Source: Subtercola sp. Z020
GTDB lineage: Bacteria > Actinomycetota > Actinomycetes > Actinomycetales > Microbacteriaceae
Direction: 5' to 3'
Assembly (NCBI RefSeq): GCF_002931235.1
Contig: NZ_PSTT01000008.1
Span: forward strand, 1-37,930
DNA: 37,930 nt
The notes under the pieces are model-generated. The model had not been told where the DNA came from. It did no database searches and worked only from the letters and a program-made list of their open reading frames with translations. The translations under genes and the position numbers were made by a program. This document shows positions 31,904-34,261 of the stretch, piece after piece (the first letter of the stretch is position 1; each line of letters starts with the position of its first letter).

Positions 31904-32917
31904 CTACAACCATCCCCGCTTCTTGAAGGCGAAGTACAGCGCGACGCCCGACCCGAGCATCAGCGCCAGGGCGAACGGGTACCCGTAGGTCCAGGTCAGC
32001 TCGGGCATGTCCTGGAAGTTCATGCCGTAGATCGCCGCCACCAGCGTCGGCGCGAACAGCACCGCCGCCCACGACGAGATCTTCTTCACCTGCTCGCCCT
32101 GCGCCAGGCTCGTCTCCGTCATGCGCTGCATCTCGTCGTTCTGCCGCTCGGCGATGAGTGTCGAATGCACCGTCAGGGCGTTCTCCAGTAGCGACCGGAA
32201 GGAATCCGTGCGCTCCACGATGCGAACGACGTGGTCGGCGACATCCCGGAAGTGCCGTTTGATCTCGAGCTCCGCCTCACCCTGCAGGCCGTCGACGAGG
32301 CGCGACATCATGTCGTCGAGCGGCCGGGTCGCGCGCTGAAAGTCGATGACCTCCCGAAGCAGATCGTAGATGCGCTTCGACACGGCGCGGTCCCCGTTGA
32401 ACAGCTGGTCCTCGATCTCGTCGATGTCGTTCTCCAGCCCGGCGAGCACCGGGGCGTATTCGTCGACGATCAGGTCGAGGATGCCGTAGAGAATCGTGTG
32501 CGGACCCTCAGCGAGAAGGGTGGGATGCTCCTCCAGGCGCTTGCGCACGGACTTGATCTCGGGAAAATCCGAATGGTTCACCGAGACCACGAAATCGGGC
32601 CCCATGAACACGTGCACCTCGCCGAACTTCACCTTCTCGACGTCGTCGAGGTAGTGAGCGGGTCGCAGAACGAGAAAGAGCGTGTCGCCGTAACGGTCGA
32701 GTTTCGAACGCTGGTGGCCGGTGAGGGCATCTTCGACCGCGAGGTGGTGCAGGCTCAGTTCGTCGGCGACAGCCTGCAGTTCCTTCTTGTCGGGGTGGCT
32801 CAGGTCGATCCACGCGACGCCGTGGTGCGCCCGCATCACCTCGAAGGTCTCGTCGAGATTCTTCGGTTCGGCAGCGCGCCGACCGTCGACGTACACCGCG
32901 TTGTCTGTGATGGTCAC
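31904..32917 (-). CDS. corA: CorA family Mg2+/Co2+ channel
   Basis: A 337-residue channel subunit: an N-terminal cytosolic alpha/beta domain with long helices, then two C-terminal membrane helices. The pore signature YGMNF (Gly298-Met299-Asn300) begins the periplasmic loop FQDMPELTWTYG, and the basic KKRGWL tail faces the cytosol. Pentamers form gated divalent-cation channels. The GTG at 32917 (VTITDNAVYVDGRR) matches the usual N-terminus and has AGGA about 13 bases upstream; an in-frame ATG at 32980 would add 21 unlikely residues. Only three bases separate its stop from the convergent sigma gene. Confidence 0.93.
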   Translation of the reverse strand: MTITDNAVYVDGRRAAEPKNLDETFEVMRAHHGVAWIDLSHPDKKELQAVADELSLHHLAVEDALTGHQRSKLDRYGDTLFLVLRPAHYLDDVEKVKFGEVHVFMGPDFVVSVNHSDFPEIKSVRKRLEEHPTLLAEGPHTILYGILDLIVDEYAPVLAGLENDIDEIEDQLFNGDRAVSKRIYDLLREVIDFQRATRPLDDMMSRLVDGLQGEAELEIKRHFRDVADHVVRIVERTDSFRSLLENALTVHSTLIAERQNDEMQRMTETSLAQGEQVKKISSWAAVLFAPTLVAAIYGMNFQDMPELTWTYGYPFALALMLGSGVALYFAFKKRGWL

Positions 32918-32955
32918 TGGATGCCCGTGTTCCTGTTTGCTCGTCGTACCCACTT

Positions 32956-32972
32956 CGGGCGCCGAGCGCCCG
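32956..32972. promoter_or_regulatory. Perfect 17-bp palindrome upstream of the DAHP synthase leader
   Basis: CGGGCGC, CGA, GCGCCCG: 7-bp arms with a 3-base centre, between corA and the leader peptide. It covers the expected -35 position of the leader promoter (about 32968-32973), so a repressor bound here would block transcription. A purely GC-driven coincidence is possible. Confidence 0.4.
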
Positions 32973-32990
32973 CAGATCATTGTGCACCGC

Positions 32991-32996
32991 TAGAGT
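32991..32996 (+). promoter_or_regulatory. Leaderless-type -10 box of the DAHP synthase leader
   Basis: TAGAGT followed by six bases (GAGAGC) and the ATG at 33003. Transcription would start at the first base of the leader peptide gene. Confidence 0.6.
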
Positions 32997-33002
32997 GAGA
33001 GC

Positions 33003-33059
33003 ATGCACGGTCGTTGGTATGCGTATTTCGGGTTGGCTCAGGGAGGGCTGACGCTGTAG
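33003..33059 (+). CDS. Aromatic-rich attenuator leader peptide
   Basis: An 18-codon open frame, MHGRWYAYFGLAQGGLTL, ending in TAG. Codons 5, 6, 8 and 9 are Trp, Tyr, Tyr and Phe, the end products of the pathway begun by the DAHP synthase 107 bases downstream. It is followed by a perfect terminator hairpin and then the structural gene, the classical ribosome-mediated attenuator order. Stalling at aromatic codons when their tRNAs are uncharged would leave the following leader RNA free to refold, permitting read-through. A comparable leader (aroR) before aroF is known in Corynebacterium to my recollection. Function is inferred from sequence alone. Confidence 0.75.
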   Translation: MHGRWYAYFGLAQGGLTL

Positions 33060-33087
33060 TCGCGCGCACCACCTTCCAGAGCCTTCC

Positions 33088-33120
33088 GGCAGAGACAACG
33101 GTCTCTGCCTTTCGCCTTTA
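33088..33120 (+). terminator. Intrinsic terminator of the DAHP synthase attenuator
   Basis: GGCAGAGAC, AACG, GTCTCTGCC: a perfect 9-bp stem with a 4-base loop, followed by TTTCGCCTTTA, notably T-rich for this genome. It lies 28 bases after the leader stop and 47 before the structural gene, so it would end transcription early. GGAGGGCT (33042-33049) can pair with AGCCTTCC (33080-33087) immediately upstream; the full antiterminator could not be settled by eye. Confidence 0.8.
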
Positions 33121-33151
33121 AACGGCGGGTCGGCCGAGGTGCTGCTCGCCA

Positions 33152-33165
33152 GAACGGAACCGTTC
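33152..33165 (+). promoter_or_regulatory. Inverted repeat at the DAHP synthase start
   Basis: GAACGG, AA, CCGTTC immediately before the ATG at 33167. No good Shine-Dalgarno is otherwise seen, and GGAA lies in this repeat, so a hairpin here could hide the ribosome binding site. Confidence 0.3.
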
Positions 33166-33166
33166 C

Positions 33167-34261
33167 ATGAGCTCCACCGACGACCTCAGGGTCACTCGTT
33201 TCGCGCCGTTGCCGACGCCCGCCTCACTGCGGAGAGAGATCGCCCTCTCGGCTGAGAACCTCGCTCTCGTCTCCTCCACCCGCGACCAGATCGAGGCCAT
33301 CCTGCGGGGCGACGACCCGCGCCTGCTTCTGGTCGTCGGGCCGTGCTCGGTGCACGACCCCGATGCAGCGATCGAGTACGCCCGGCGCCTCGCCCCGCTG
33401 GCCGAGGAAGTGAGTGGTTCCGTGCTCGTTGTGATGCGCGTGTACTTCGAGAAGCCCCGATCGACCGGCGGATGGAAGGGTCTCATCAACGATCCCTTCC
33501 TCGACGGCACCCACCGCGTCGCCGACGGGCTGCGCATCGCGCGCCTGCTGCTGCGCGACATCCTCGACCTCGGGCTGCCGGTGGGGTGCGAGTTCCTCGA
33601 GCCGACGAGCCCGCAGTACATCGCCGACGCTGTGAGCTGGGGCGCGATCGGGGCGCGCACCACCGAGAGCCAGATCCACCGTCAGCTCGCCTCCGGAGTG
33701 TCGATGCCGGTCGGCTTCAAGAACGCCACAGACGGCGACGTGCAGGTCGCGGTCGACGGATGTGTCTCCTCGGCCCAGTCGCACGTCTTCTTCGGCATCG
33801 ACGAGCACGGCATGGCCGCCGCCGTCGAGACCACCGGCAACGCGGCCGGCCACGTCATTCTGCGGGGTGGCCGGGGCGGCCCGAACTTCTCGTCGGCCTC
33901 CCTCGCGGCTGCGGCCGGGCTGCTGGCAAAGGCCGGACTCGAGCCGCACGTGGTCGTCGATGCCAGCCACGCCAACAGCGGCAAAGACCACGTTCGCCAG
34001 GTCTCGGTGGTTCGCGAGCTCGCGGCGCAGCTCGAAGCGGGAGACCCGATTTCGGGCATCATGATGGAGAGTTTCCTGGTCGGCGGTGCGCAGAAGCTCG
34101 ATGCGTCCGCGCTCGGCCAGCTGGTGTTCGGCCAGAGCGTGACGGATGCGTGCATCGACTGGGACACGACGGCGGTTCTGGTGCGCGAACTCGCCGCCGC
34201 GGCATCCACTCGCCTGCCCGACACCGCGCGTCGGTTGGTGGATGTCGGAGGCGCGAACTAG
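33167..34261 (+). CDS. aroF: 3-deoxy-7-phosphoheptulonate (DAHP) synthase, type I
   Basis: Condenses PEP and erythrose-4-phosphate, the entry to aromatic amino-acid synthesis. 364 residues of the E. coli AroF/G/H (AroA-I-alpha) type: LLLVVGPCSVHDPDAA with metal-ligand Cys60, MRVYFEKPRSTGGWKGLI, GARTTESQ, GFKNATDG and VVDASHANSGKD. The first N-terminal residues form the feedback-binding region in E. coli homologues, so allosteric inhibition by an aromatic amino acid is likely; which one cannot be said. It sits behind the attenuator and in front of the AlkA-like gene, 13 bases away. The symbol is by type; aroG would serve equally. Confidence 0.94.
   Translation: MSSTDDLRVTRFAPLPTPASLRREIALSAENLALVSSTRDQIEAILRGDDPRLLLVVGPCSVHDPDAAIEYARRLAPLAEEVSGSVLVVMRVYFEKPRSTGGWKGLINDPFLDGTHRVADGLRIARLLLRDILDLGLPVGCEFLEPTSPQYIADAVSWGAIGARTTESQIHRQLASGVSMPVGFKNATDGDVQVAVDGCVSSAQSHVFFGIDEHGMAAAVETTGNAAGHVILRGGRGGPNFSSASLAAAAGLLAKAGLEPHVVVDASHANSGKDHVRQVSVVRELAAQLEAGDPISGIMMESFLVGGAQKLDASALGQLVFGQSVTDACIDWDTTAVLVRELAAAASTRLPDTARRLVDVGGAN

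Follow-up and report, generated by a model that had tools for sequence, protein, structure and literature searches.

The leader locus and its promoter

Does the 18-codon open reading frame (ORF) that precedes a DAHP synthase gene of Subtercola sp. Z020 act as a ribosome-operated sensor of aromatic amino acids and, if so, how does it signal to the gene downstream? The original prediction, made from a 37,930-nucleotide stretch of DNA (hereafter, the window), described a frame with Trp, Tyr, Tyr and Phe at codons 5, 6, 8 and 9, the hexamer TAGAGT six nucleotides upstream of the ATG, a 9-bp hairpin and a DAHP synthase gene downstream. We confirmed every one of these elements at its position and located the following features:

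32991-32996, + strand: -10 hexamer TAGAGT, N6 spacing to the ATG at 33003; TAnnnT conserved in relatives
33003-33056, + strand: leader ORF, 18 codons, peptide MHGRWYAYFGLAQGGLTL, stop TAG at 33057-33059; core conserved in relatives
33015-33029, + strand: control codons TGG TAT GCG TAT TTC (W5 Y6 A7 Y8 F9); aromatic codons conserved
33015-33024, + strand: segment a, lower 5' strand of hairpin I, paired by RNAalifold with the region 3' of the stop
33032-33046, + strand: segment A (GTTGGCTCAGGGAGG), partner of B or C; A:C covaries
33045-33052, + strand: segment B, upper 3' strand of hairpin I; pairs with A
33062-33071, + strand: segment a' (GCGCGCACCA), lower 3' strand of hairpin I; pairing in 65% of cells (tested register)
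33072-33083, + strand: segment C (CCTTCCAGAGCC), partner of A or F
33088-33109, + strand: hairpin P2, 9 perfect bp, GGCAGAGAC (33088-33096), loop AACG, GTCTCTGCC (33101-33109); covaries
33110-33122, + strand: tail TTTCGCCTTTAAA 3' of P2, a candidate termination or pause site
33124-33127, + strand: 3' side of helix P3, opposite CGCC of the tail TTTCGCCTTTAAA
33124-33139, + strand: segment F (GGCGGGTCGGCCGAGG), possible partners C, the tail (as P3) and G in duplex tests
33145-33150, + strand: segment G (CTCGCC), 5' of the DAHP synthase start, complementary to GGCGGG of F
33167-34261, + strand: class I DAHP synthase (aroF-type), 364 aa (PF00793, E=3.9e-84)

The TAGAGT-N6-ATG arrangement predicts a transcription start at or near the A of the ATG, i.e., a leaderless leader. 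All 157 loci with enough upstream sequence carried a TAnnnT hexamer 6-8 nt upstream of the leader start (6 nt in 80, 7 nt in 75 and 8 nt in 2), versus a background at 6-7 nt of 170 in 11,000 ATGs of related loci (1.5%), and this comparison includes scan loci whose leader starts were chosen so as to favor a TAnnnT at 6-7 nt. A T-rich -35 (TTTG) was visible in the pooled upstream regions. The -35 of the window promoter is poor and is overlaid by a perfect 6+3+6 palindrome (32957-32971), to which the original prediction had attributed a possible repressive role. Although the palindrome exists in the window, repression at this site is a highly improbable main control of the locus, as the palindrome is absent upstream of the three congeners compared (L002, L003 and L004). 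The second palindrome of that prediction, before the DAHP synthase start codon, recurs in these three congeners only in an altered form. On the opposite side of the promoter, the divergent gene at 31904-32980 (minus strand), which we take to be CorA-like, has a GMN motif and a likely start downstream of the listed ATG. A search of the 3.5-Mb host genome with the window enzyme found no second copy of the class I DAHP synthase; a class II DAHP synthase (PF01474) is encoded on a different contig.

We also asked how often such an arrangement would be found by chance. The combination of an ORF of 8-40 codons, two or more aromatic residues among its first 15 codons and a TAnnnT 5-8 nt upstream occurred once on both strands of the window, at 33003, and in 2 of 1097 random 560-nt windows of related loci. 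Further, the leader RNA of the window folded better than 200 of 200 shuffles (z -2.91). By these counts, the leader arrangement before the DAHP synthase gene is not a chance occurrence. Rfam 15 gave no match anywhere in the window at gathering score, the only sub-threshold matches to the element being Hammerhead_II (18.3 bits against a gathering score of 37, on the other strand) and PVT1_3 (E=6). The leader peptides of two relatives (L006 and L032) had no match in Pfam, the window peptide being too short for a profile search, and those of L006, L032 and L067 had none in NCBIfam.

Distribution of the leader and its sensor codons

The original prediction had pointed to orthologous DAHP synthase genes as the place where the frame and the hairpin should recur. 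Among 249 genomes of the family, 22 had a DAHP synthase match and 19 an intact one (two weak matches, with E values of 3e-4 and 7e-4, were not counted, and the match of genome G063 was in two pieces with the middle of the protein absent), and the leader was present in 18 of the 19 intact orthologues, so this check went in favor of the prediction. The leader core was mostly RWYAYF, the other versions being RWYAYG/D/V, RWYTYR or RFWYVYE. The peptide was identical to that of the window in L003 (genome G140, same genus) and in L104, which is Subtercola boreus P27479 (NBXB01000003.1). The one exception, L013 (reverse strand), has an intact DAHP synthase without a leader, and its congener L014 retains a divergent leader (MNRFWYVYE). 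The two pieces in G063 (L020 and L023) are neighbors covering residues 2-109 and 193-301, and the sequence 5' of them looks transposase-like by eye.

A scan for the core motif, which detects only leaders resembling the search pattern, extended the set to at least 117 loci. Titles were listed for 80 of these and placed 78 in Micrococcales (mostly Arthrobacter, Pseudarthrobacter, Sinomonas and Microbacterium), one in Sporosarcina and one in Nocardioides. The elements of the latter two (L038, with the title Sporosarcina beigongshangi, and L098, a Nocardioides MAG) are Arthrobacter-like, and their records may be misassigned. A DAHP synthase motif followed the leader in 110 of the 117 scan loci listed; the sequence of six others runs out within 450 nt of the leader, and the gene of the last one (L067) has a variant motif. 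At L034, a one-base difference abolishes the usual leader stop, which could be a sequencing error or decay.

In the order, 79 of 396 genomes matched a covariance model (R1; E up to 0.01), and in the phylum 16 of 396 did (E up to 0.1), with chance matches included in both counts. Of 40 order loci fetched, we dropped one repeat (L221) and read 39: 29 elements stood before a DAHP synthase gene, 3 before tyrS and 7 were chance matches. At the class level, the leader preceded DAHP synthase in 28 of the 29 best-scoring loci from 75 genomes (host genome excluded). We then read a further set of 67 loci (the best-scoring 27 new loci of 137 genomes, 20 chosen for genus spread and 20 more from the 75-genome set, with L324 repeating L235), reduced to 66 because L322 has no gene motif in its stretch. 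The leader was present in 51 of these and absent from 15, namely 13 loci that are all those read from family f103, one from f21 and one from g502. Beyond the host order, the leader precedes many, but not all, of the DAHP synthase genes read. The core also varied by lineage (RWYWRF, RRYPYF, AYWRF and AYFWF). The aromatic-codon leader, the leaderless promoter layout and the alternative helices before DAHP synthase that are seen in the window are conserved across genera and families.

Which amino acids the leader reads was examined at 158 loci (18 from the family, 117 from the scan and 23 of the 39 order loci), comprising 81 distinct leaders. Trp, Tyr and Phe codons all lay within the first 12 codons in 76 of the 81, and the W-Y-x-Y-F core was retained in 52. 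The reading of several aromatic tRNAs by one leader, as predicted from its codons, is therefore normal for these leaders; the original prediction had considered the arrangement unusual, yet it is rather the rule. Within the first 12 codons of the 158 leaders, Tyr was encoded by TAT 294 times and never by TAC, compared with 0 TAT and 16 TAC in three frames of the window, and Phe was encoded by TTT 126 times and TTC 30 times, compared with 3 and 31 in the three frames. Phe was missing after the second Tyr in eight distinct WYxY leaders, five of which have Phe at codon 3 or 4 instead; an upstream Phe was present in only 1 of the 52 leaders that keep the downstream one (Fisher p 6e-5, relatedness ignored).

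The retention of the W-Y-x-Y-F core in 52 of 81 distinct leaders might also be expected if the ORF encoded a conserved small protein with a function of its own, the RNA helices being incidental. We consider this hardly credible. At L010, L016 and L108, which are among the leaders without the downstream Phe, a two-base difference shifts segment A into another frame. The second half of the peptide is thus read differently and the RNA segment is kept, so that A is conserved at the RNA level and the aromatic residues at the codon level. Compensatory changes favor RNA pairing as well, and the ORF is located 5' of DAHP synthase or, in its Tyr-codon version, 5' of tyrS. The latter version has the same layout and was represented in family f12, where a leader with a Tyr codon (e.g., MHLRHDYPHGSGTSRAVVRPPTP) precedes tyrosyl-tRNA synthetase genes (loci L213-L215, L325-L331 and L333). 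Leaders were present in all eight readable loci among nine close tyrS matches. In seven of the eight, the first 12 codons had no aromatic residue other than Tyr; L326 had Phe as well.

Predicted alternative helices around the leader frame

In an alignment of 36 representatives (A2), 89% of the cells of A:C, P2 and P3 were paired and 18 of the 27 base pairs had changes on both sides (8/14 in A:C, 7/9 in P2 and 3/4 in P3). These amounted to 63 both-side-changed cells versus 18.5 in shuffles (0/500), and sliding the partners brought pairing down to 41-50%. The covariation of A:C (95% of cells paired) and P2 (81%) is strong and argues for both helices, although alignment-free A:C duplexes beat shuffles in only 48 of 79 wider leaders. 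For C:F, the register differs between lineages; in the Arthrobacter register, 68% of the cells were paired and three of eight pairs had changed on both sides. Of 114 leaders, 88 had an alignment-free C:F duplex below the 5th percentile of shuffles, as did 40 of the 79 wider leaders. The covariation support for C:F is moderate. Hairpin I (a:a' topped by A:B) had 75% of its cells paired, and its A:B part 94% with no pair changed on both sides; covariation of the hairpin in A2 was not above that of shuffles, and the folding energy of its region lay under the 5th percentile of shuffles in 59 of 79 leaders of the class. Folding thus points to hairpin I, for which there is little covariation. The stretch from A to C folded better than hairpin I in 98 of the 114 leaders and 70 of the 79 wider ones. 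An F-G duplex under the 5th shuffle percentile was obtained for 77 of 114 leaders, a soft count as the tested segments overlap in some sequences. The folding tests of the 114 leaders carry some noise, because P2 was misplaced in 14 of them (stems of 2-4 pairs), with a fifteenth having a stem of 6, and in some Microbacterium sequences the regular expression used to find the tail placed it wrongly.

Hairpin I, A:C and C:F are mutually exclusive, and P2 is compatible with all three. The classical antitermination at the 9-bp hairpin implied by the original prediction did not find support: in the aligned relatives, the P2 stem varies freely and has no conserved pairing partner elsewhere, and P2 covaries only within itself, which led us to reject an antiterminator opposing it. 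The element also departs from a classical trp-type attenuator in that its alternative helices A:C and C:F do not overlap P2 and, therefore, provide no strand-sharing antiterminator.

Does P2 terminate transcription? The T-rich tail anticipated for the window does follow the hairpin, but it is only moderately T-rich, and a simple terminator scan did not call P2 and its tail (0 found, 0.3 expected). The U-tract is also mostly poor in relatives (CCTTCGCCAT in 56 of 123), and some lineages (L232 and L253) have U-rich P2 tails. We considered and rejected the idea that P2 represents a terminator type common in the genome. In the host genome, the tail pattern SCCTTTCGYCNTT was found once, at the element itself, as often as its reversed control, and the pattern SCCCTTCGCCNTTT had zero occurrences in genome G328. 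P2 may still act as a weak terminator: three chance matches of the covariance model (L212, L216 and L224) are hairpins with a similar tail, and that of L216 seems by eye to follow the 3' end of a tRNA-like sequence. Hairpins at gene ends in related loci were surveyed as well, but the 40 strong ones, several of which are the element itself, are too small a sample for a decision.

Probable AroR-type attenuation and its possible output

The element is very probably a Subtercola member of the AroR-type attenuators, with a translated ORF at the 5' end controlling the downstream class I DAHP synthase gene. The leaderless layout, the aromatic codons, A:C, P2, C:F and hairpin I, all of them sequence evidence, are the grounds for this reading; on the other side stand L013 and the 15 of 66 wider loci without a leader. 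An aromatic short ORF lies directly before the class I DAHP synthase gene of the window, and a hairpin with a U-rich, if imperfect, tail separates the two. This type of device is already known from aroR, and the window element would be a further case of it. The aroR leader is reportedly leaderless (from work attributed to Neshat and colleagues, 2014), as is predicted for the window element.

In the accessible text of the sources, the aroR attenuator of aroF (cg1129) in Corynebacterium glutamicum resembles the window in having a short aromatic-codon leader before a DAHP synthase gene (PMC11802643, PMC4046766, PMC3890552). Its F-Y-F leader precedes aroF, whose expression is raised under Phe limitation (PMC11802643, PMC4046766) and unaffected by Tyr supply (PMC11802643). 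A difference is apparent in the core (F-Y-F rather than W-Y-A-Y-F). Like the host genome, that of C. glutamicum encodes two DAHP synthases, and aroR precedes the gene of one of them (PMC4046766). The C:F and P3 pairings proposed here come from the comparison of the present leaders. F-Y-F leaders with a window-like layout were found in two of the three g502 loci (L285, MRMWRFYFSKAPEAETS; L286, MRNWRFYFEWGSGR) and no leader was found in the third (L287); we infer that g502 is Corynebacterium. The F-Y-F leaders join the published aroR to the leaders described here and suggest that the attenuator of one industrial Corynebacterium belongs to a family spread across several actinobacterial families.

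Other actinobacterial attenuators share parts of the design, as far as the accessible text of the sources goes. In the ilvBNC attenuator of C. glutamicum, the leader ORF starts at about the transcript start and three alternative hairpins share a segment, yet the codons are for branched-chain amino acids and terminator and antiterminator share GCC, whereas P2 of the window shares no segment (PMC11857589). The trp attenuators of Streptomyces and Corynebacterium also combine a leader peptide, alternative hairpins and a U-rich-tailed hairpin (PMC1262725, PMC8079986), and that of S. lividans is leaderless (PMC8079986); they differ in having Trp codons and in being located before trp genes. In their accessible portions, Seliverstov et al. 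found no conserved structures before genes of amino-acid pathways beyond those listed (PMC1262725), and a DAHP synthase leader is absent from a list of eight leaders in S. lividans (PMC8079986) and from one of three in C. diphtheriae. The only DAHP synthase leader mentioned in the literature searched, which excludes most subscription journals, is that of Corynebacterium, and the peptide string RWYAY is absent from it. Within that searchable literature, the wide leader family and its tyrS version appear to be unreported.

By the logic of leader-peptide attenuation, the position of the ribosome would select among hairpin I, A:C and C:F. The ribosome would start at the 5' end of the transcript and read the aromatic codons as the RNA polymerase moves on. 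With plentiful aromatic aminoacyl-tRNAs, it would clear the ORF, hairpin I would re-form and C would be free to pair with F, cutting expression, probably because the RNA polymerase is released at P2 and the U-rich tail that follows it. A shortage of Trp, Tyr or Phe would stall the ribosome at codons 5-9 and so prevent hairpin I, allowing A to take C, and expression would rise. Equilibrium folding does not predict a response at codons 5-6, because the stretch from A to C outfolds hairpin I, and a ribosome masked at codon 9 favors C:F rather than A:C, which goes against the model in its simple version.

The model is least secure at its final step, where the signal would act on either termination at P2 or initiation at the start of the DAHP synthase gene. 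By homology with aroR, we lean toward an output at the transcript level; an output at the level of translation is doubtful, and one at both levels is unlikely. Termination at P2 is favored by the transcript-level description of aroR and the U-rich tails in L232 and L253, and disfavored by the lack of any helix competing with P2 and by the poor tails of most leaders.

A tentative alternative is a translational relay, in which the choice between A:C and C:F decides whether G or F covers the ribosome-binding site of the DAHP synthase gene, with P2 acting as a pause or spacer. In favor of the relay, masking codon 9 in the 114 leaders reduced A:C from 11.7 to 2.1 pairs, raised C:F from 1.1 to 6.2 and lowered the opening energy of the DAHP synthase start region in 81 leaders (higher in 22). 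The effect was smaller when C was shuffled (mean -1.69 vs. -0.51 kcal/mol, p 0.003, in 46 sequences left from 51 after dropping five with misplaced P2). Within the codon 5-9 footprint suggested in the original prediction, folding points to codon 9 as the position where a stalled ribosome would free C; masks at codons 5, 6 and 8 were weaker (51 lower and 31 higher, 56 and 33, and 64 and 27, respectively, of 114). Stalls at aromatic codons also lowered the mean opening energy of the start region in 15 of 27 class-level leaders and raised it in 6, a set in which starts were set by rule and some look wrong (e.g., L230 and L236). The direction of the relay is, however, lineage-dependent: Arthrobacter-like leaders open with C:F and Mycobacteriaceae-like leaders with A:C, and F covering the ribosome-binding site in Arthrobacter would give the switch the opposite sign. 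Folding supports sequestration of the ribosome-binding site by an alternative helix in Arthrobacter-like leaders, but not consistently in Subtercola, where the effects were +0.02, -1.11, +1.42 and +1.84 in L001-L004 and -2.02 in L079, and the DAHP synthase gene of the window lacks a clear Shine-Dalgarno. A comparable case is that of the short Cys-rich ORFs of mycobacteria, reportedly leaderless sensor ORFs that control downstream genes in an actinobacterium (Canestrari and co-workers, 2020), as the window ORF, with its predicted leaderless start, would do; they differ in sensing cysteine and in their translational output. In the accessible text, those of M. smegmatis control downstream translation (PMC9031893), as a relay would, whereas the aroR data are reported at the transcript level (PMC11802643).

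The family of leaders suggests that sensor codons and RNA switch evolve separately, and it opens to experiment the weighting of three amino acids by a single leader and the timing of a leaderless ribosome relative to the RNA polymerase. Beyond the AroR-type reading, one might speculate, with considerable reserve, that the element is an old actinobacterial RNA sensor whose leaderless ORF integrates three aromatic tRNAs, whose helix chain signals to the enzyme start with P2 as a timed pause, and from which a codon swap gave the Tyr sensor of tyrS. In the AYFWF-type lineages (L288, L291, L294, L301 and L316), P2 is apparently missing and segment C forms, by eye, a hairpin with a segment just downstream. 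In L294, six T follow this hairpin, an arrangement resembling that of a classical attenuator.
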